A stretch of DNA of 64,000 bases, from assembly GCF_003789055.1 (NCBI RefSeq), contig NZ_ML119086.1:62001-126000 (forward strand), read 5' to 3'. The position numbers and the translations under genes are program-made. The stretch comes from Histidinibacterium lentulum (GTDB lineage: Bacteria; Pseudomonadota; Alphaproteobacteria; Rhodobacterales; Rhodobacteraceae). The notes beneath the pieces were generated by a model that did no database searches, had not been told where the DNA came from, and saw only the letters and a list, made by a program, of their open reading frames with translations. Positions 11,099 through 21,231 of this stretch are shown here, piece after piece (the stretch's first letter is position 1; each line of letters opens with the position of its first letter).

Positions 11099-13207
11099 CT
11101 AGGCATCCTCAAGACCGCGGGCGCAGGCCTCGCCCGTCGACAGGATCGCCGCTGTGGCATGGCTTCGGTCTGGCATCCGCTGGCTGATCGCGACGTGGCG
11201 GATGAACGAGACCCATTCCAGAACGGCGAGGCGATCGCGATCGACGGGACCACGGAATTCCTCGTAGCCCGTCAGGAACGCGTCGGCACCGGCACGAAAG
11301 CCGTCCGCCCGCCCGTGAAGGCGCAGGCTCAGCTCGGTCAGATGCGCGCGGAGGTTGCCAAGGTCGAGCAGCGGGTCGCCGCGGGCGAAAAGGTCGAGGT
11401 CCACAAGCCAGGCGGTCCTTCCGTCGATCAGCACCTGGTCGGGGTGAAAATCGCGGTGGATGCCGGTCGCGGCCGCGGGCGGGAGCGCGCCGAGCAATCT
11501 TTCGGCGATGCCAAGGAGCCGCTCTGCACGGGCGCGCAGGCTAGGCTCTGGCAGAGCGGCAAAGGCGGCGCGCAGGACGGCGAGTTCGTCGTCCATCGTC
11601 CAGCTCCGATCCGCCGCCGCGTCCGCGGCGTGCAGAATGCCGAGGGCCTTCCCTGCGGAGCGCAGGGCGTCGGTCGTCAGAATATCTCCGAGCGGCCGAC
11701 CCGAGACCACCTCCTGGAGCCAGAGCGCTCCGATCTGGCCCAGGGGTTCGGGTACGCCGACATGGTGTGGCCCCCGGCCGTCGAGGCCGGCGGCGCGGAG
11801 CGCCTGGTGCAGCCTGGGCGTGCGGCGGTCGGGACCCTTGGCCCGCAGTTTGCCCAGCATGGGCGGCCTGCCAGGCAGGTCGTAGCGGATCAGCGCCCGG
11901 CGTCCGGGCTTGTGGCGCAGGAGCGTGACAGCGGGCGTCGCGCCGAGAGTCGGCCCCATACGCGCCGGGTCGAGAGCGCCGGAGAGGCCCGGCGTGGGCT
12001 CCCGCGCTGCCGCCCTCCGCCCGTCGAGACGGTCGGAGATCAGCGCGAGCACCGCCCGCGCTTCCGCATCCCAGGCAGGGCGCCGGGTGCGGAACCCCTC
12101 CCCCGCGATGGCGAGCAGGGCCGCGGCGCGGTGTTCCTCCACCCCTTCGGGCACGGCCCCGGCCGTGGCGGCGTAGCCGTCGCACAGCGCGGTGGCCGCC
12201 GCCTCTGCCTCGGACGCCGCCAGGATGCCCTCGATCACGTCGGCGTCGAGCCGTGCGAGGAAGGTGCCGAGGTCCTGCGCCGGGGCGCCGACGCCCATTC
12301 GGTCCCAGTCGATCACCACCGGCGCTCCGTCCCGCAGCAGCACCTGGTCGGCAGTGAAGTCGCCGTGGATGCGGCAGGGAGTGGCGGCGATGGCGCGCAG
12401 CGCCGTGTCCAGCCGGGCGGCGAGCGCGGCGGCCTTCTCGGCCTCGTCGGGAAGGAGCGCGGCAACGGTCCCGGCCGCGGTCTGCGCGTCGGGCAGCGCG
12501 ACGGGCTCGCCCGGACGCGGGGCGGCGCCGTGGAGCCGAGCCAGTTCCGCGCCGGTCAGCCGATGGGCGGCGGTTCCGCTCGCGCCGGCCATCGGGCTGC
12601 CCTCGATCCACCCGGAGACGACGCTGCGCCGCCGCTTCCTGATCCCCAGCAGCGGTACGCCGGCCACCCGCGCAGCATGGCGCGCGCCCGCGAAAGCGGC
12701 GCGGAAGGCCTCGTCCGCATGGGCCTTGATCAGGGCGCGGGGGCCCTCCGCCCCGTCCGCCCTCAGCACCAGGCGCCGGCCGGGCTTGTAGCGCAGGAGC
12801 CGGAGGGTCGTGTCCTCGAGGCCGAAATGGGCGAGGAAGGCACGGCGCCCGTCGGAGTACTGTAGCACCCGTGCCGCTGCGATCTCCCGGTCGAGGCCGA
12901 GCGGCGTGACGGCGATGCAGTGCTCGTCCACGAAATGCGCCCGCAGCGGCCCGGTCCGCCATTCCTCGCGCTCACGCACCTCCGCGTAGCGGCCGGGCGG
13001 ATAGGCCATCGCGGCCCAGGCACGCAGCGACCCTGTCGGAGAGGTGAGCGCGACGACGCAGCTCGTTCCCGGCTTGTAGCGCAGGTAGGTGGGCTGCATG
13101 TCGGCAAGCCCGACCTGTGCCGCCATGCCCCGCGCGTCCAGCAACGCGGCAAGGCCCGGCAGGTCCGGGTCGCGGGCGGCAAGCGCCGCGTCAGCTGGCG
13201 AGAGCAT
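11099..13207 (-). CDS. Multi-domain aminoglycoside-phosphotransferase-like protein
   Basis: 702 residues with two kinase-like (APH/choline kinase fold) units. Catalytic-loop motifs are IHGDFTADQVLL (H281, D283) followed by VVIDWD (D300), and IHRDFHPDQVLI (H584, D586) followed by LVDLD. In both loops the usual Mg-binding Asn is Gln. A short N-lobe motif LRxKPG occurs three times (about residues 42, 139, 430), so a third, incomplete unit probably sits at the N-terminus. Expected role: ATP-dependent phosphorylation of a sugar or lipid-linked hydroxyl. ATG 13207 overlaps the end of the ABC exporter gene by 17 bases. Last gene of the glycosyltransferase cluster. Confidence 0.8.
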   Translation of the reverse strand: MLSPADAALAARDPDLPGLAALLDARGMAAQVGLADMQPTYLRYKPGTSCVVALTSPTGSLRAWAAMAYPPGRYAEVREREEWRTGPLRAHFVDEHCIAVTPLGLDREIAAARVLQYSDGRRAFLAHFGLEDTTLRLLRYKPGRRLVLRADGAEGPRALIKAHADEAFRAAFAGARHAARVAGVPLLGIRKRRRSVVSGWIEGSPMAGASGTAAHRLTGAELARLHGAAPRPGEPVALPDAQTAAGTVAALLPDEAEKAAALAARLDTALRAIAATPCRIHGDFTADQVLLRDGAPVVIDWDRMGVGAPAQDLGTFLARLDADVIEGILAASEAEAAATALCDGYAATAGAVPEGVEEHRAAALLAIAGEGFRTRRPAWDAEARAVLALISDRLDGRRAAAREPTPGLSGALDPARMGPTLGATPAVTLLRHKPGRRALIRYDLPGRPPMLGKLRAKGPDRRTPRLHQALRAAGLDGRGPHHVGVPEPLGQIGALWLQEVVSGRPLGDILTTDALRSAGKALGILHAADAAADRSWTMDDELAVLRAAFAALPEPSLRARAERLLGIAERLLGALPPAAATGIHRDFHPDQVLIDGRTAWLVDLDLFARGDPLLDLGNLRAHLTELSLRLHGRADGFRAGADAFLTGYEEFRGPVDRDRLAVLEWVSFIRHVAISQRMPDRSHATAAILSTGEACARGLEDA

Positions 13208-15005
13208 GGGCTCCCGCGCCCCGCAGCATCTCCGCGAACCGTCCGCCCCGGCGCAGCAGATCGGCCGGCGCGCCGTCCTCCGCCACGCGACCGCCGTCGA
13301 GCAGCAGGACGCGATCGGCCGTCGCCGCGAGTTCGAGGTCGTGCGTGACAAGCAGAACCGTACGCCCCTCCGCAAGCTGCCGCAGCGCATCGGCCACGAT
13401 CGCCCCGCTGTCCCGGTCTAGGCCCGCGGTCGGCTCGTCGAGGATCAGGATCCGGCTGTCGCGGAGTGCCGCCCTGGCGATGGCGATTCGCTGCCGCTGC
13501 CCGGCCGATAGCGTCGAACCGCGCTCGGCGATCTCGGCGTCGTAGCCCTCGGGCAGCGCGCGGATGAAGCTGTCGGCATGGGCGAGGCGTGCGGCGGCCT
13601 CGATCTCGTCCCGTTCGACGTCGCGTCCCGATCCCAGCGCGATGTTCTCCGCGATGGTGCCGCGGATCATCAGCGGGTCCTGCGGCACGAGTCCGATTTG
13701 GGCCCGGAGCGAGCGCAACGTGACGGTGCGGATATCGGTCCCGTCGATCAGGACCCGACCCGCGGTGGGGTCGTAGAGGCGCAGGACGAGGCTGGTGAGC
13801 GTCGACTTTCCGGCACCGGAGGGACCGGTGATCGCCACCGTGGTTCCTGCCTCGATCACGAAGCCCGCACGATCGAGCACCGGCGCGCCGTCCCCACCAT
13901 AGCGGAAGCTCACTTCCTCGAAGGCGATGCGGCCGTCGAAACGCGGCGCGACCTTCGCATCCGGCCTGTCCGTGACGGTGGGGCTCTGGTCCAGCAGGCT
14001 CACGACCCGCTCGCCGGCCGCGACCGCCTTGGCGAGTCTGGCGGTGTACTTAGCGTAGTGCCTCACTGGACGGAAAGTCTGCTTGAGGTAGGTGACGAAG
14101 ATCAGGAGGTCTCCCGGCGTGATCCGCCCGGCCAGCACCTGCAGCGTGCCGTACCACAGCACCAGAGCGAGCCCGAGGCCCGACAGCAGGTCGACGGAAC
14201 GCTCCAGCCCGGCGGCGAGCCGTTTGCCCTTCACGCCCTCGCGCATGTCCTTGTCGTTGGCGCCCTCGAACTGGGTGGAGACCTCGTCCTCGAGCCCGAG
14301 GGCCTGGACGGAACGGATGCCCGCCATGGTCTCGGCGCTGGTCGCGGCGAGTTCTCCCTGCCGCTTGCGCTGCTTGCGGCTGACGTTGCGGATGCGGGTG
14401 CCGAGCCGGCGCGACAGCAGCCAGAGGAGCGGCAGGGGCGACAGGGCCACGAGCGCGAGCCGCCAGTCGAGCCAGAACATCACGCCGATCATGCCGGCGA
14501 AGACGAAGACGTTGGCCAGCAGCGGCAGCGCCGCGGTCACCAGCGTCTCCTTCAGCATGCCGACATCGCCTATGAGCCGCATGGTCAGGTCGCCGGCCCG
14601 GGCGCGGGCATGGAAGCCGAGCGGCAGGATCTGCAGGTGTCGGAAGAGATCGGCGCGAACCTTCGTCAGCACCCGATTGCCCACCAGGGCGAAACCCAGA
14701 GTCGAGACGTATTGAAAGAGCGCCTTCAACGCGACCACGGCCAGGAGCCCCAAGGCGCAGAGGGTAAGAAGGGTCATCGGGTCGAGGGAGGCGGCGATAT
14801 CGGCCTCTCCCGCGGCGCTTGGCACCACGCGGTCGATAATGAACTTGAGGGGCCACGGCTCGAGCAGTTTCATCGCCGTCGCAGCGAGGAGTGCCGCCAC
14901 CGACCCGCCGAGGAGCGCGGCGTGGGGCCGCGCATAGGGCGCGAGCCGGCCGAAGACCTGCCGGAGGGACGGCAGGATTTCCGTCAGGCTCTCCTTGCGG
15001 CTCAT
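13191..15005 (-). CDS. ABC exporter, fused membrane and ATPase domains (MsbA-like)
   Basis: 604-residue half-transporter. Six transmembrane helices span about residues 25-330. The nucleotide-binding domain has Walker A GPSGAGKST, signature LSAGQRQR, Walker B ILILDEP and the H-loop in LLVTHDLEL. Homodimers of this type export lipids, glycolipids or peptides across the inner membrane. It overlaps the upstream glycosyltransferase by ATGA and lies between the glycosyltransferases and a phosphotransferase, so its cargo is probably the product of those enzymes. The substrate cannot be read from the sequence. Confidence 0.9.
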   Translation of the reverse strand: MSRKESLTEILPSLRQVFGRLAPYARPHAALLGGSVAALLAATAMKLLEPWPLKFIIDRVVPSAAGEADIAASLDPMTLLTLCALGLLAVVALKALFQYVSTLGFALVGNRVLTKVRADLFRHLQILPLGFHARARAGDLTMRLIGDVGMLKETLVTAALPLLANVFVFAGMIGVMFWLDWRLALVALSPLPLLWLLSRRLGTRIRNVSRKQRKRQGELAATSAETMAGIRSVQALGLEDEVSTQFEGANDKDMREGVKGKRLAAGLERSVDLLSGLGLALVLWYGTLQVLAGRITPGDLLIFVTYLKQTFRPVRHYAKYTARLAKAVAAGERVVSLLDQSPTVTDRPDAKVAPRFDGRIAFEEVSFRYGGDGAPVLDRAGFVIEAGTTVAITGPSGAGKSTLTSLVLRLYDPTAGRVLIDGTDIRTVTLRSLRAQIGLVPQDPLMIRGTIAENIALGSGRDVERDEIEAAARLAHADSFIRALPEGYDAEIAERGSTLSAGQRQRIAIARAALRDSRILILDEPTAGLDRDSGAIVADALRQLAEGRTVLLVTHDLELAATADRVLLLDGGRVAEDGAPADLLRRGGRFAEMLRGAGAHALAS

Positions 15006-16150
15006 GCAGCGCTCCTCTTGCCGATGCCTGCGAGGGCGAGGACTCGGGAGGCGACCCCGTCCCAGGTCCGCGTGGCGAGGACCTCGGCGCGTGCCTCCCG
15101 GCCGAGCGCCTCCCGCCGGGCCGGGTCGCGCGCGAGGTCTGCCAGCGCGGCGGCGAGGGCGCGGCGATCGCCGGGGGCGGTCAGGAGACCGGTGCGGCCG
15201 TGATCCACGACCTCTGGCAGGTGACCCGAACGGCTCGTCACGACGGCAAGACCCGCGGCCATGTATTCGTAGATCTTGAGCGGCGAGAAGTAGAAGTTCT
15301 CGCTGGCGGGATAGGGCGCCAGCCCGACATGCAGGCGCGCGAGCTGCCCCGGCACCGAGTCCGGGGCGACGGCCCCGGTGAACTCTACCGCATCTGCCAC
15401 GCCGAGGTCGGCGGCCAGCGTGACCAGGCGGTCCCGCTCCGGCCCATCGCCGATGATGACGAGCCGGGCGTCGGGGACCTCCTCGCGCAGGATCGCCAGA
15501 GCGGCGATCGCAGAATCGACGTCGTGCCAGGGCTTGAGGCTGCCGAGGAAGCCGACGGTAAAGGCGCCCTCGGGCCGCGCCACTTCCGGGAACCGGTCGG
15601 GGGAAATCGCGTTCGGCACCACCTCCACGATGCGGCCTCCGAGGCTCCGGCAATGGGCCGCGACGGCGGGCGAGACGGCGGTGATGGCATGAGCCGCCTC
15701 CATCGCGCGCCGGGCGCTGGCTTCCGCAGCCTCGGGCCGTGCGAGGGTCCGGTGACGGGCCTGCTCCTCGCTCAGGGGGGCATTTACCTCAAGCAGGCCG
15801 GGGACGCTCAGGTCCCGGGCCGTCTCCATCGCCGCATGGGCATAGAGCGCATGGCGTTCGTAGATCATGTCGAGGGGGCCGGCGGCCCTCAGCGACGACA
15901 CCACCTCGGCGTTGAGGGCGAGCGCGTCGCGGGCCCGATCCTCCGCGTTTCCTTTCCGCGGAAGGGGCAGAGGCGCCGTCGCCACCCGCGCGAGGTCTCC
16001 GGGGGGCGTCCCCTCCAGCCTGGGCGAGAGCAGCGTGACCTCCGCGCCGAGAGAGACGAAGGCCCGAAGCATCTCCTGGACGTGGATCGACGCGCCCTTC
16101 GTGCCGAAGACCGGGATACCGGGATCGGTGCAGACATAGGCGATGCGCAT
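15002..16150 (-). CDS. GT4-family glycosyltransferase
   Basis: 382 residues, GT-B fold. The N-terminal acceptor half begins MRIAYVCTDPGIPVFGTKGA. The C-terminal donor half has GFLGSLKPWHDVD, RLVIIGDGPER and the E-x7-E-type PLKIYEYMAAGLAVV loop of retaining GT4 enzymes. It transfers a sugar from a nucleotide donor to a glycan or lipid acceptor in the cytoplasm. The start and the stop of the preceding gene share one base (TGATG), and its own stop overlaps the ABC exporter start. Confidence 0.9.
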   Translation of the reverse strand: MRIAYVCTDPGIPVFGTKGASIHVQEMLRAFVSLGAEVTLLSPRLEGTPPGDLARVATAPLPLPRKGNAEDRARDALALNAEVVSSLRAAGPLDMIYERHALYAHAAMETARDLSVPGLLEVNAPLSEEQARHRTLARPEAAEASARRAMEAAHAITAVSPAVAAHCRSLGGRIVEVVPNAISPDRFPEVARPEGAFTVGFLGSLKPWHDVDSAIAALAILREEVPDARLVIIGDGPERDRLVTLAADLGVADAVEFTGAVAPDSVPGQLARLHVGLAPYPASENFYFSPLKIYEYMAAGLAVVTSRSGHLPEVVDHGRTGLLTAPGDRRALAAALADLARDPARREALGREARAEVLATRTWDGVASRVLALAGIGKRSAA

Positions 16151-17379
16151 CAGGCCACCCCCCGCAGGTCCGCGCCGGCCGTGCCCATGGCCTCCGAGAA
16201 GACTGCACGCAGGGTGGCGGCATTCCGGACCACGTCGAAGTCGCGCTCGATCCGGGCCCGGCCGCGGCGCGACATCTCTTCACGCAGCCCAGGGTCGTCA
16301 AGGGCGCGCGCAAGACCCGATGCCAGCCCCTCGGGATCCGCCTCCGGGACCAGGAGGCCGGTCTCGCCATCCGAGATGAGCTCCGGGATTCCGGTCACGG
16401 GGGTCGCCACGCAGGGCAGCCCCAGCGCCATCGCCTCCAGCAGAACCGTGGGCAGCCCATCGCGGTTGCCGTCGCCGCCCACGACGCAGGGACAGGCGAA
16501 GACGGCGGCGCGGCGCATCTCCGCGACCACTTCGGCCTGGGCCATCGGACCGGCGAGGGTGACGGCATCTCCGAGGCCGGCAACGTCGATCTGCGCGGCG
16601 AGGTTCTCCCGCTCGTCCCCGCTGCCGACGATGCGGCAGGTCACGTCGCGGCCTGAGGCCCGCATCAGCCGGATGGCTTCGACGAGGATGTGGAAACCCT
16701 TCTTCTCCACCAGCCGTCCGACGGCGAGGACCTCCCGTGCGCCGGGCTCCGGCGGGACGTAGGGAAACCGGGTCAGGTCGAGCCCGTTGTAGATGCGCAG
16801 CACGTTGCCGGGCGCCGCGCCGAAACGGTCCTGAAGAAAGCCGACATTGTAGTCGGAAACGGTGACCACCGCCTTCGCATCGGCGATCTTTCGGTCGAGA
16901 TGCTGGGGCGCCTCGTAGTCGTAGTAGATGTCCTTGGCGTGCGCGGTGAAGCTGTAACCGATCCCTGCGAGGGCGGCCGCGAGCCGGGCGACGGCGGTCG
17001 AGACGGTGCCGAAATGGGCGTGCAGATGGCCGACCCCGCGATCCCGGCAGGCCAGCGCCACGACGATCGCCTGGGCGACGTCGCGCCCGTCCGTGTCGGC
17101 CATGCGGGCGAAGGCGCGAGCGGCATCGGGTAGCCGGGCATGGGCCTCGGCGATCAGTTGCCAGAGAGCGTCGGCGCCGCGGAACGCATGGGGCACGAAG
17201 GTCACGGGGGCCCGCACCTGGCCGAGATTGTCCTGGAAATGCGTCTCGGCCACGGGCCGCAGGGCGAAAATCTCGATCTCCTGGCCCGCGGCCTCGTGCG
17301 CGAGGATCTCTCCCACCACGAAGGTCTCGGAGAAACGCGGATAGCGCTTGAGGACGTAGCCTACCTTGAGGTCGGTCAT
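16150..17379 (-). CDS. GT4-family glycosyltransferase
   Basis: 409 residues, GT-B fold, beginning MTDLKVGYVLKRYPRFSETF, a start typical of colanic-acid/exopolysaccharide GT4 enzymes with the FSETF motif. Other landmarks are HLHAHFGTVS, VLAVGRLVEKKGFHILVEA and the donor loop GLPTVLLEAMALGLPCVAT. ATG 17379 is used; the frame extends 57 codons upstream with no support. It follows the COG4671-type transferase by 19 bases and overlaps the next GT4 gene, so three sugar transferases are co-transcribed. Confidence 0.9.
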   Translation of the reverse strand: MTDLKVGYVLKRYPRFSETFVVGEILAHEAAGQEIEIFALRPVAETHFQDNLGQVRAPVTFVPHAFRGADALWQLIAEAHARLPDAARAFARMADTDGRDVAQAIVVALACRDRGVGHLHAHFGTVSTAVARLAAALAGIGYSFTAHAKDIYYDYEAPQHLDRKIADAKAVVTVSDYNVGFLQDRFGAAPGNVLRIYNGLDLTRFPYVPPEPGAREVLAVGRLVEKKGFHILVEAIRLMRASGRDVTCRIVGSGDERENLAAQIDVAGLGDAVTLAGPMAQAEVVAEMRRAAVFACPCVVGGDGNRDGLPTVLLEAMALGLPCVATPVTGIPELISDGETGLLVPEADPEGLASGLARALDDPGLREEMSRRGRARIERDFDVVRNAATLRAVFSEAMGTAGADLRGVA

Positions 17380-17398: not shown

Positions 17399-18631
17399 TC
17401 AGGACGCGCGCAGCGGTAGCGCGCCCGCGCCGAGCATCTCCGCAGCAAGCGCCCGGACCCGGTCGAGTCCGCCCATGTCGAGGGCGGGGCCGGTCGGACG
17501 GGGCGGCGGAGAGGCGAGCCAGGCGCCGAGGGCCGCGGGACTGAGGCCATCGGGATGCAGCATGTCGGCGAAGCCGCGCGCCGCCAGCCGCTCGGCCCGG
17601 ATCAGCTGTTCCTCCCGCGGGCGGACCCGCGGCACGATCAGGGCGGGCCGGTTCAGTGACAGGACTTCGCAGGTGGTGTTGTAGCCGCCCATCGCGACGA
17701 TGCGCGAAGCGCCGGCCATCAGCTCGATGGGCTCCTGCAGGAAGGGCAGAATCGTGATCTCCGGCCGCCGCGCGCCGAGGTCGCGGATGCGGTCGCGCAG
17801 GGCGCCCGGCATCTGCGTGCCGGTCACGAGGATGCCCCGATGCCCGGGCGGCAGAGGCGTTCGCACGAAGGCTTCGCAAAGGCTGGCGCCGTCGCGGCCG
17901 CCGCCCACGGTGCAGAACACATAGGGCGATGGATCGTCACCCAGCACGGTGCGCGCCTCGGTGATGGCAAGGTCGGAGCCGCACCGGACGGAATGGTCCA
18001 GGTAGCCCACATGCTGAGCACGCCCGGCAAAGGCGCCGCCCAGCTCGCAATCTGCGGCGACGTCGTAGAGGGCGGGGTCGCCGTAGATCCAGATCGCGTC
18101 GAAATGCCGGCGCACGGTCTCGAAGTTGCGCTGGCGCAGCCATTGCCGCCGCACGGCCGCGGGCCGGTCGATCACGTCCCGCAGGCCGAGCACGATCCGC
18201 GCCCGGTTCCGGGACCGCAGCGCCTCGAGCGTTGCGTCGAGTTCGAAGAGGGCCCCCCGGGGCACGTTGTCGACAATCATCAGGTCGGGATCGAAGACGC
18301 GCACTGCGGCCTTGATCGCCTGGCTCCGAAGAGCAGTGAGCGCGCCCAGGTCCTGGCCCAGATCCCGCGGACGATAGCCGCCGTCTCCCTGCTTGGCATA
18401 GGCCGGCAACGTCAGGACGTCGACGCCCTCCGGCAGGTCGAAGGCCCCGGCCTCGCGCATGCCGCCGATCAACAGGATCTCGGGCGTGGGCTCGATATCC
18501 CTCAGCGCACGGGCCAGCAGGAGGTTGCGGCGCAGATGCCCGAAGCCAAGCGTGTCGTGGGAATAGAGCACGATCCGAGGGGCCGTTGCCCCGCGACCGA
18601 AGCGTTCTCCTGCGTGGTTTCCATCTGCCAT
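17399..18631 (-). CDS. MurG-like (COG4671-type) predicted glycosyltransferase
   Basis: 410 residues. The N-terminus carries LYSHDTLGFGHLRRNLLLAR and the C-terminal half the GT28-like donor site, with MGGYNTTCEVLSLNRPALIV and VPRVRPREEQLIRAE. This layout fits the family of predicted glycosyltransferases related to MurG. ATG 18631 has a GGAGGG seven bases upstream. First gene of the five-gene minus-strand cluster; it diverges from a two-component system, and the 249-base region between them carries a triple direct repeat. Confidence 0.85.
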   Translation of the reverse strand: MADGNHAGERFGRGATAPRIVLYSHDTLGFGHLRRNLLLARALRDIEPTPEILLIGGMREAGAFDLPEGVDVLTLPAYAKQGDGGYRPRDLGQDLGALTALRSQAIKAAVRVFDPDLMIVDNVPRGALFELDATLEALRSRNRARIVLGLRDVIDRPAAVRRQWLRQRNFETVRRHFDAIWIYGDPALYDVAADCELGGAFAGRAQHVGYLDHSVRCGSDLAITEARTVLGDDPSPYVFCTVGGGRDGASLCEAFVRTPLPPGHRGILVTGTQMPGALRDRIRDLGARRPEITILPFLQEPIELMAGASRIVAMGGYNTTCEVLSLNRPALIVPRVRPREEQLIRAERLAARGFADMLHPDGLSPAALGAWLASPPPRPTGPALDMGGLDRVRALAAEMLGAGALPLRAS

Positions 18632-18701
18632 TCGCACCCTCCGGGTCGACGGGCAGTGTGAGCGGATCACCGTGCATCGAGGCACGGGCGGCACGCCCCC
18701 A

Positions 18702-18730
18702 CTGTCATGCGGCTGTCATCTACAGGTCAT
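18702..18730 (+). promoter_or_regulatory. Pho-box-like triple direct repeat
   Basis: CTGTCAT at 18702-18708, CTGTCAT at 18713-18719 and AGGTCAT at 18724-18730 lie with an exact 11-base period (seven bases plus four). This is the arrangement of PhoB boxes and of OmpR-family sites in general. An AT-richer stretch follows on the plus strand (GGTTATTTC near 18736), so the site better fits a promoter for the sensor kinase gene. It could also affect the divergent glycosyltransferase operon. Binding by PhoB or by the neighbouring response regulator is inference. Confidence 0.6.
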
Positions 18731-18880
18731 ACGTGAGGTTATTTCGTCGTCTTCAAATTAGAATCCCACGAGAGGCTCCGGCGTCCGGTTTTGCCGCGCC
18801 ATCGGCGGCGTTATTCTGCCGACATCCGCGGCCAACCGCCGATTTCCCGACCGCCTGTCGGATCTCCCGGGACTGTTGAG

Positions 18881-20500
18881 ATGAAGATCAGGACCAAGCT
18901 CTTTGCCAGCCACGCCACGATGTCGGGGTTGGCCGTCGTCGTCGCGCTGGCGATCATCGCGATCCTGCGGGTCAGCGACGCCAACGTGCGCGAGCTGCAA
19001 TCCTCCTACGAACAGATCCGCGCGATCAACCTCATCGATTCCCGGGCGAACCGCTACTCGGAGCAGGTGGCCGAACTCTTCATACTCGGCACCGACCCTG
19101 CCGAGATCGAGGAGGCGCATGCCGGGCTCTTCGCCGCCCTCGCCCACAAGGAGCTCCTCGTGCGCATGGAACAGGACGAGCTGTCCGACGCGGCGGAGCT
19201 CGACCGCGGGCGGGAGGAGATCGGACGGCTCGAGGCGATGCGCGACGCGGTCGCCAATCTGGAACTCGGGTGGCAGGAGGCCGGGCGCCTTCTCGAGGCG
19301 GGCCGCCGCGCGGAGGCGGAGCGGCTCTATCGTGAGCGGATCGAGGACGGGTTCGACAGCGCCCTCGGCCAGCTGATCGAGACCGCGACCCTTGGCGAGC
19401 GTGAGGATGTCGAGAGGGCGATCGCGGCCTCGGCTGTCCTGTCGGACCGGCTGAGGATGCTCGCCCTTGCGATGGTCGCCGCGACCGCCCTGCTGGTGCT
19501 GGCGAACGCCGTCATCGTCCACCGGACGATCTCGCGGCCGATCGCGGCGCTCGCCGCAGGCGCCGATGCCGTCGGCCGCGGGGACCTCGACCATGTCCTC
19601 CACCTGCGTCGCCGGGACGAGCTGGGCCACCTCGCGACGCGCTTCAACGAGATGACGGCGCAGATCCGGGCGCAGCGCGAACGGCTGATGGGAGCCAAGC
19701 GCAACCTCGAGGCGCAGGTGGCCGAACGCACGAGCGAACTGCGTGAGCGCAGCGACGAGCTCGAGGCGGCCGTGTCGCGGCTGCGCCGGCTCGACTCGGA
19801 CCGCGCGCAGTTCTTCGCAGACATCAGCCACGAACTGCGTACCCCGCTCACGATCATCCGCGGCACGGCGGAGGTCGCGCTGCGCTCCCAGGACGGAGGC
19901 GCGGACCGGCTGCGCGAGGCGCTGGCGCAGGTGGTGCGCAAGACCGATCAGATGGGCAGGCTGGCCGAGGACCTGCTATTTCTGTCCCGGTCGGAGGCCG
20001 GGGCAATCCAGGTCGAGCGCGTGCCGATCGACCTCCAGGACGTCTTTGCCGACGTGGTGCTGGACAGTCATGGCCTTACGGGGCGGGCCGGGATCACCCT
20101 GTCGCCGCGCCAGACATCGGAGCCGGTGGTGGTCGAGGGCGATGCCGACAGGCTGCGCCAGGCGATCCTGATACCGCTCGACAACGCGATCCGCCTCGCG
20201 CCCGCAGGCTCCACCGTCCGGTTGGAACTGGCGCGACACGACGGGCGGGCGAAGGTCACGGTCTCCGACGAGGGGCCGGGGTTCACCCCTGACGAGTTGG
20301 AGAATGCCTTTCGCCGCTACTTTCGCGGCGAAGGCGGCGGCGGTCGGTCGGGGCGCAGCACCGGGCTCGGCCTCGCCATCGCGCAATGGATCGTCGGCGA
20401 ACACGACGGGTCCATCACCATCGACAGCGCACCGGAGAAGGGCGCGACGGTACGGATCGACCTGCCGCTCGCGGAGACCAGGACGGAGACGGCAGCATGA
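18881..20500 (+). CDS. Membrane sensor histidine kinase
   Basis: 539 residues: transmembrane helix about 13-30, a helical periplasmic sensor region (31-190, rich in Glu/Arg, four-helix-bundle-like), second transmembrane helix about 193-214, HAMP domain about 215-262, coiled coil to 300. The HisKA domain has H317 in ADISHELRTPLTII, and an HATPase domain follows (PLDNAIRLAP, DEGPGF, TGLGLAIAQWI). The start is ATG 18881. It autophosphorylates on H317 and passes phosphate to the response regulator, whose gene overlaps by ATGA. The signal is unknown. The kinase gene comes before the regulator gene, the reverse of the commoner order. Confidence 0.92.
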   Translation: MKIRTKLFASHATMSGLAVVVALAIIAILRVSDANVRELQSSYEQIRAINLIDSRANRYSEQVAELFILGTDPAEIEEAHAGLFAALAHKELLVRMEQDELSDAAELDRGREEIGRLEAMRDAVANLELGWQEAGRLLEAGRRAEAERLYRERIEDGFDSALGQLIETATLGEREDVERAIAASAVLSDRLRMLALAMVAATALLVLANAVIVHRTISRPIAALAAGADAVGRGDLDHVLHLRRRDELGHLATRFNEMTAQIRAQRERLMGAKRNLEAQVAERTSELRERSDELEAAVSRLRRLDSDRAQFFADISHELRTPLTIIRGTAEVALRSQDGGADRLREALAQVVRKTDQMGRLAEDLLFLSRSEAGAIQVERVPIDLQDVFADVVLDSHGLTGRAGITLSPRQTSEPVVVEGDADRLRQAILIPLDNAIRLAPAGSTVRLELARHDGRAKVTVSDEGPGFTPDELENAFRRYFRGEGGGGRSGRSTGLGLAIAQWIVGEHDGSITIDSAPEKGATVRIDLPLAETRTETAA

Positions 20501-21231
20501 GCGACACCCGAATCCTGATCGTCGAGGACGATACCGAGATTGCCGAGTTCATGAGCCGCGGCCTGTCGGCCGAAGGCTACGAGGTCGTCGTCGCGCCCAA
20601 CGGAGCGGGTCTCTTCGACAACCTGCGGGACGGCGACGTGGACCTCGTGATCCTCGACCGGATGCTGCCCGATGCCGAGGGGATCGACCTCTGCCGCCGG
20701 CTGCGCGCGACGGGGGACGGCGTCCTCGTCGTGATGCTGACCGCCCGCGACGCGCTGGAGGAAAAGCTTGAGGGCCTGCGCTCGGGCGCCGACGACTACC
20801 TGACGAAGCCCTTCGCCTTCGAGGAACTGCTCGCACGGATCGAAATCCTTCTGCGGCGCAGTCGCGGCACCCAGGCCGTTCTGCCCGCAGGCTATGCCGA
20901 CCTCATCATAGACCGGGCGCGCAAGGTCGCGCGGCGCGGCGGTCGCGACCTCGGGCTGACCGCGACGGAGTTCAACCTGCTCGAGTATTTCGTCGACAAT
21001 GCCGAAATCGTCGTGAGCCGGATGGACATCCTCAACAACGTCTGGGGCTACGATTTCGACCCGAACACCAACATCGTGGAAGTCTACATAGCATATCTGC
21101 GCAAGAAGATGGAGGGGCCGCTGGGTCCCCGACTGATCCGCAACGTCCGCGGCTTCGGCTACATTCTCGATGCCGACAGCGTCAATGCGGCGGCGCCGGC
21201 CCCCGGCAGGACCGAGCGACACGGCACTTGA
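20497..21231 (+). CDS. OmpR/PhoB-family response regulator
   Basis: 244 residues: receiver domain (residues 1-120) with acidic pocket EDD, phospho-acceptor D54 in LVILDRMLPD and K in DDYLTKPF. The winged-helix output domain (about 130-230) has LTATEFNLLEYF and the recognition-helix region NTNIVEVYIAYLRKKM. The recognition helix is closer to CusR/PmrA-type regulators than to PhoB itself. ATG 20497 overlaps the kinase stop. A triple 11-base direct repeat in front of the kinase gene may be its own binding site. Confidence 0.93.
   Translation: MSDTRILIVEDDTEIAEFMSRGLSAEGYEVVVAPNGAGLFDNLRDGDVDLVILDRMLPDAEGIDLCRRLRATGDGVLVVMLTARDALEEKLEGLRSGADDYLTKPFAFEELLARIEILLRRSRGTQAVLPAGYADLIIDRARKVARRGGRDLGLTATEFNLLEYFVDNAEIVVSRMDILNNVWGYDFDPNTNIVEVYIAYLRKKMEGPLGPRLIRNVRGFGYILDADSVNAAAPAPGRTERHGT

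Follow-up and report, generated by a model that had tools for sequence, protein, structure and literature searches.

The Pho box is described as a run of CTGTCAT-like 7-bp half-sites with 4-bp separation (PMC4415409), and in the PhoB-DNA complex a guanine is contacted by Arg201 and thymines by Thr194 and Val197 (PMC3973317). In Bacillus subtilis, PhoP~P represses tagAB, the teichoic acid operon (PMC6232261). In S. meliloti, where galactoglucan is under the control of PhoB, WggR and MucR, a surface polysaccharide cluster has a PhoB box near the site bound by its local regulator (PMC3233446), and a similar arrangement is proposed for the locus analysed here. This locus is found in a 64-kb stretch of Histidinibacterium lentulum DNA (hereafter the window), with a sugar operon and a two-component operon diverging from a common control region (Table 1). 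The original prediction had described a triple repeat with an exact 11-base period, a kinase and an OmpR-type regulator on the plus strand, and three glycosyltransferases, an ABC exporter and a kinase-like protein on the minus strand; the repeat, with its coordinates, and the neighbours were both borne out. Among the literature matches listed on Pho control and on the sugar cluster (titles and abstract openings, with few subscription papers), the arrangement is undescribed.

Table 1 Features of the divergent locus, in window coordinates; all -10 and -35 elements are predictions from sequence
Feature	Position	Strand	Details
Protein with two APH-type kinase domains	11099..13207	-	Pfam APH, two stretches
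ABC exporter, MsbA-like	13191..15005	-	ABC_membrane, ABC_tran
GT4-type glycosyltransferase	15002..16150	-	Pfam Glyco_trans_1_4
GT4-type glycosyltransferase	16150..17379	-	Pfam Glycos_transf_1
GT28-like glycosyltransferase (GT1), first sugar-operon gene	17399..18631	-	Glyco_tran_28_C 22.1 bits, cut-off 22
Pho-box-type triple direct repeat	18702..18730	+	Three 7-bp half-sites, 11-bp period
Half-sites of the triple repeat	18702-18708, 18713-18719, 18724-18730	+	CTGTCAT, CTGTCAT, AGGTCAT
Predicted -10 of glycosyltransferase operon	18726..18731	-	TATGAC; overlaps third Pho half-site
Candidate PhoB-dependent -10	18740..18745	+	TATTTC; 9 bp past triple repeat
Predicted operator of adjacent regulator	18756..18774	+	AATTAGAA, then CACGAGAG 11 bp further
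Candidate -35 of two-component operon	18790..18795	+	TTTGCC; 16 bp ahead of -10; weak match, tentative
Predicted -10 of two-component operon	18812..18817	+	TATTCT
HAMP-domain sensor histidine kinase	18881..20500	+	Pfam HAMP, HisKA, HATPase_c
OmpR/PhoB-type response regulator, not PhoB	20497..21231	+	Response_reg, Trans_reg_C

The repeat has the layout CTGTCAT-N4-CTGTCAT-N4-AGGTCAT with a period of exactly 11 bp, and 18702-18730 falls within the definition of two or more CTGTCAT-like 7-bp half-sites set 4 bp apart. At up to three mismatches, the triple pattern occurs at one place in the 4,353,039-base genome and nowhere in the reversed control. The two-half-site pattern, at up to two mismatches, was found at 12 places compared to 4 in the reversed control. 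The two overlapping pairs of the triple repeat are included in these 12, and the first pair is the sole exact match. For NTGTCATNNNNCTGTTAC the genome count was 23 compared to 18 in the control, an enrichment that is not clear. A Pho-type dimer, CTGTCATGCACCTGTAAC, was also observed at G000:C5:42682-42699 (L011), ~50 bp ahead of a gene whose product is predicted to be secreted and gave weak matches of the choice-of-anchor and phytase-like types.

Of 24 genomes searched, 22 contained PstS, and a half-site matrix was fitted to triples in the 22 pstS upstream regions, with a hand-typed E. coli-like consensus as seed. The matrix converged on half-sites resembling CTGTCAC, CTGTTAC and CTGTCAT. A typical pstS site approximates CTGTCAT-N4-CTGTTAC-N4-CTGTCAC and starts 98-121 bp ahead of the gene in 20 of the 22 cases; the pstS box of Histidinibacterium lentulum itself reads ATGTCATCAAACTTTTACATGAATGTCAC. 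Scored with this matrix, 18702-18730 reaches 22.5 and represents the top place in the window, the runner-up being found at 9.0. The training sites score 16.7-30.6, three of the 22 falling below 22.5 (on a background slightly different from that of the window scan). None of 8,000 null windows (250 nt each, mostly coding DNA of related loci with site-bearing stretches removed) matched the score of 18702-18730 with either two or three half-sites, and for 3,000 Markov shuffles of intergenic DNA the p value was printed as 0.000 in both cases. The genome's own PhoB scores 348 bits with its family model, compared to a curated cut-off of 296, and retains the E. coli PhoB residues Thr194, Val197, Arg201 and Arg219 (numbering via alignment). 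By order and sequence, the genes ahead of phoB look like phoR, pstS, two permease genes, pstB and phoU, PhoB being the one member of this phosphate gene set that was checked by family model. A search for the same 7+4 repeat in front of pst genes had been proposed together with the Pho-box layout, and CTGTCAT-like triples are present in 22 pstS promoters. As judged from these sequence comparisons, the Pho-box reading was tested against pstS promoters of the same bacterial family and held: the layout matches their triple repeat and PhoB lies above its curated cut-off. Binding of PhoB to 18702-18730 is considered probable.

The repeat was then compared across a set of 17 loci, i.e. 14 with the two-component system and three sugar clusters without it. 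GT1 is divergent beside the kinase gene in 13 of the 14 distinct system loci, G094 being the one without; L122, L123, L125 and L126 are short loci containing only GT1 of the sugar operon. Duplicates, judged by identical genome place or equal match figures, were removed (L104 and L118 equal the window, L003 equals L111, L119 equals L098, L120 equals L020, L124 equals L018; L112-L115 and L121 repeat L105-L108; L109/L116 are one locus, as are L110/L117). L028, the contig of which begins inside GT1, was excluded, and L004 and L005, with 47% regulator identity and neither a kinase nor a GT match >80 bits within their 3.7 kb, were not treated as orthologues. The 14 loci do not represent independent lineages.

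Either PhoB or the adjacent OmpR-type regulator had been named in the original prediction as a possible reader of the triple repeat. The PhoB-type site stood, whereas the adjacent regulator (186 bits with the PhoB model, cut-off 296) has a repeat of its own. If the triple repeat were its autoregulatory operator, the site would be well placed, adjoining the regulator's operon, and of conventional design, as OmpR-family operators usually take the form of 11-bp direct repeats (PMC4832192). However, an ATTAGAA-N4-ATTAGAA-type 11-bp direct repeat is found instead in all 14 loci, while the CTGTCAT triple is seen in the window only (1/14); the triple repeat is not conserved wherever the two-component system occurs. 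Moreover, in the recognition helix of the local regulator the PhoB Arg201 position is occupied by Tyr in 14/14 loci (alignment numbering). The adjacent regulator was ruled out as reader on the basis of its ATTAGAA box and this Tyr, and an autoregulatory role of the triple repeat is regarded as extremely unlikely.

In the window, the ATTAGAA box begins 25 bp past the end of the triple repeat, and its second half is degenerate (first half-site, then ACGAG, as in L125 and L126). Leave-one-out analysis gave p <=0.0009 in every locus, with nine of the 14 exceeding all 8,000 null windows. The value of 0.0009 in five loci is due to top null windows scoring 24.6, equal to a second Loktanella box, and we infer that these are one place. 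This second box (L020:15619-15637) lies past the end of the sugar operon, ahead of a gene for a small protein with RTX calcium-binding repeats. Scores range from 12.5 to 30.6 in the 14 system loci and are <=4.8 in all three alphaproteobacterial sugar clusters without an adjoining system (G341, G035 and Pseudorhodobacter turbinis). Outside the alphaproteobacteria, one of 19 other cluster upstream regions (L032, Nostoc) scores 16.6, within the range of true boxes, and the rest <=9.3. The box is the sole place at <=2 mismatches in its own genome, with three more at 3 mismatches and 11 places in the reversed control. In G094 (L111) the box is kept with the system though the sugar cluster does not adjoin. 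There (L111:6385-8351) the system is divergent from a small glycine-rich gene, which by eye reads like a lipoprotein gene, and from a gene for a surface lipoprotein assembly modifier (SlipAM). The ATTAGAA box is taken as the predicted operator of the local regulator, and the system as having one target or a small number of them. The two-component operon is likely autoregulated, as originally claimed, albeit through the ATTAGAA box and not through the triple repeat.

A different OmpR-type regulator, linked to a PepSY protein (C7:95872), retains Arg at the Arg201 position and was weighed as reader of the triple repeat; a relative of it adjoins the sugar cluster in Pseudorhodobacter turbinis. Its promoter contains CTGTCAG-N4-CTGTCAG (CTGTCAGCTTGCTGTCAG at G000:C7:95497-95514, L136:3498, ahead of the PepSY protein and the regulator), and TGTCAG recurs at an 11-bp repeat before its two closest relatives seen, L180 (74% identity) and L100 (69%). 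These repeats are likely an autoregulatory box. The seventh half-site base is G in six of six PepSY-linked half-sites as compared to T in three of three in the triple repeat, and the pstS matrix has almost always C or T at this base; the window half-sites TGTCAT, TGTCAT and GGTCAT are not of the TGTCAG type. Furthermore, at E 1e-60 no match to the PepSY-linked regulator was obtained in G585, G357 and G356, three genomes that have Pho-type repeats at the sugar/two-component promoter, and its more distant relatives L181-L183 showed no TGTCAG-type box within 650 nt. It was rejected as general reader on account of the seventh base and the missing matches, and recognition of the window repeat by this protein appears very unlikely. 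Because of the DNA-contacting residues retained in the genome's own PhoB, the local regulator's Tyr, the TGTCAG boxes of the PepSY-linked regulator and the lack of a match to the latter at E 1e-60 in three genomes, PhoB is the best candidate reader of the triple repeat. The approach offers a means of distinguishing putative PhoB sites from the similar TGTCAG sites that a different regulator has in the same genome.

Across the 17 loci, two half-sites with a period of 11 were found at p <=0.005 in six (window, L019 from Palleronia, L020, L105, L108 and L116), compared to 0, 0, 0 and 2 loci for periods of 9, 10, 12 and 13. With three half-sites the count is five of 17, including L100, whose TGTCAG site belongs to another regulator; as the other periods gave 0, 0, 1 and 4, period 11 is not separated from 13. 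In two of 60 trials, permuted-column matrices picked up 5 and 7 of the 17 loci (p 0.005), compared to 4 for the real matrix, this null being drawn from loci containing the sites themselves; the high trials probably reflect capture of the ATTAGAA box. In four of the 14 system loci (window, L019, L020 and L106), TGTCA[TC] is present on the plus strand at a distance of 36-55 bp to the left of the ATTAGAA box; sliding windows elsewhere contain it in at most one of 14. The recurrence has P 5e-7, or 2e-5 after 44 windows, for a motif and place that were picked after viewing the sequences. As the flanking DNA is only 32-40% identical in the ten locus pairs compared, common descent of unselected DNA is an improbable source of the TGTCAT recurrence. 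The Pho-type site looks to be under selection. L108 has the match nearest to the CTGTCAT triple, with three half-sites on the opposite strand (19.3). In L106, TGTCAT is present with no 11-bp pair (p 0.048) and the partner half-site is inverted. Eight of the 14 system loci have no Pho-type pair at p <=0.02 and period 11; they include that of Paracoccus aestuarii, whose GT1 is the most similar (76% identity). The conservation put forward as a check on the original prediction is partial, and a CTGTCAT triple common to all orthologous promoters was rejected. From the comparison, the Pho-type site seems to have been gained and lost among relatives.

The promoter elements were examined relative to the regulator box. 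On the minus strand, TA is found at offsets 22-26 to its left in 10/14 loci, and on the plus strand at offset 36-37 to its right in 9/14. The left hexamers are poor -10s, with a mean TATAAT-matrix score that is negative at all offsets (best -1.1). The last Pho half-site falls on the predicted sugar-operon -10 in the window, L019, L020 and L105 (relatives by eye), and because of this coincidence part of the Pho match could be promoter sequence. The overlap, together with the lack of the site in many relatives, would suit a chance or promoter-derived similarity devoid of function. Such an origin is unlikely, as it has to be set against a triple that is unique in the genome, is not equalled in the null windows and recurs at one place in relatives. 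As to the consequence of binding, placement over the predicted sugar-operon -10 fits repression better than activation. Because the Pho-type repeat sits on the left -10, bound protein should block the sugar operon, and we infer repression of this operon rather than activation of something.

The main rival proposes that PhoB activates the two-component operon via the triple repeat, using the -10 TATTTC at 18740, and that this system in turn drives the sugar operon. At four loci (window, L019, L020 and L105) the Pho-type repeat is oriented towards the kinase gene, and in the window TATTTC stands 9 bp past it. A precedent exists in S. meliloti, where PhoB activates wggR, the gene of the local galactoglucan regulator, and acts together with WggR (PMC3233446). 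However, the -10 shared by the two-component operons is ~80 bp away from the triple repeat, and by eye L019 and L020 have no good -10 at the proper distance past the repeat. In many pstS promoters, TA as a possible -10 is found ~21 bp past the third half-site (by eye) and not 9 bp. We consider activation of the two-component operon by PhoB rather doubtful. The same observations qualify the earlier claim that the plus-strand side has the better -10 candidate: TATTTC may have been meant, yet no -10 of this type was seen by eye in L019 or L020, and the shared position is 18812-18817.

The sugar operon has a patchy distribution, with GT1 in seven of 394 family genomes at E 1e-90. The sensor kinase was found in 9/390 and the regulator in 4/100 (E 1e-60) family genomes, and the genus neighbour G065 gave no match to GT1, sensor kinase or regulator. 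In five of the seven GT1 genomes the two-component system adjoins GT1. The related sets inspected, from cyanobacteria, Lautropia and an Escherichia plasmid, showed a regulator of only 35-42% identity or, within the stretch, none of this kind. Ten Escherichia plasmid records carry a GT1 relative, from sources including cattle, food, a crow and people. In one of these (L099, NZ_AP025748.1) it heads a glycosyltransferase-ABC-kinase set in which the double kinase is split into two genes; an alginate-export-family protein and a nucleotide sugar dehydrogenase are encoded after this set. On the Ruegeria sp. TM1040 megaplasmid (L102), a distant GT1-GT2 pair is located a few kb from phosphonate (phn) genes. 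The ABC exporter of the window scores 417 bits with the MsbA model, under the equivalog cut-off of 602, and the double kinase has the loops HGDFTADQ and HRDFHPDQ (from translation). That the operon product contains phosphate is a weak guess from the two kinase domains. In PlcP-type phosphate-starvation glycolipid operons, a PlcP-type phosphodiesterase and a glycosyltransferase are encoded in one operon. Family models detected no PlcP-type enzyme among the five sugar-operon proteins, and the triple repeat overlaps the operon's predicted -10; the earlier idea of a phospholipid-to-glycolipid swap is without direct support.

In summary, the triple repeat is interpreted as a putative PhoB site in a divergent control region, beside an independent ATTAGAA operator of a dedicated two-component system. 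The local regulator, positioned between the two promoters, most likely activates the sugar operon as well as its own. When phosphate is scarce, PhoB~P would occupy the half-sites, cover the sugar operon's -10 and start region and lower its transcription; the product may hold phosphate. We assign a probability of roughly 0.4 to PhoB binding and repression of the sugar operon jointly. The arrangement suggests that the cell tunes its surface coat to phosphate supply. If true, an uncharacterised surface-sugar gene set with relatives in cyanobacteria, Lautropia and Escherichia plasmids would be tied to phosphate supply. For the two-component system, of which no description was found, the ATTAGAA box provides a predicted operator that can be tested. 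A broader view is decidedly speculative: PhoB sites would arise repeatedly on the -10 of a patchy sugar-export cluster with a private ATTAGAA operator in some alphaproteobacteria, and starvation would shut off a phosphate-containing surface polymer, like the teichoic-acid switch of Bacillus.

Compared to the known systems, the window site is most similar to the pstS Pho boxes, with three CTGTCAT-like 7-bp half-sites at an 11-bp period within the same bacterial family. It differs from them in its position over the predicted sugar-operon -10, in a divergent region, and in its GC-rich spacers; furthermore, its half-sites all end in T, to which the pstS matrix gives 0.29 compared to 0.70 for C. 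The ATTAGAA repeat is similar to the PmrA and RstA boxes in having tandem half-sites ~10-11 bp apart and OmpR-family readers, albeit with a different base sequence, recognition residues and targets (PMC3973317, PMC4117788). PhoB acts as an activator in S. meliloti, with a local regulator, WggR, that belongs to the Mar family (PMC3233446), whereas the window has an OmpR-type two-component system and a putative PhoB site that is repressor-like in placement. A phosphate-starvation regulator switching off a surface polymer operon, as PhoP~P does with tagAB, is a proposal in the present case; the B. subtilis product is a Gram-positive wall polymer known to hold phosphate, and phosphate in the product of the window operon is a guess (PMC6232261). 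Pho boxes at polysaccharide clusters are already known, and in the window a putative one is accompanied by a predicted operator of the local system.
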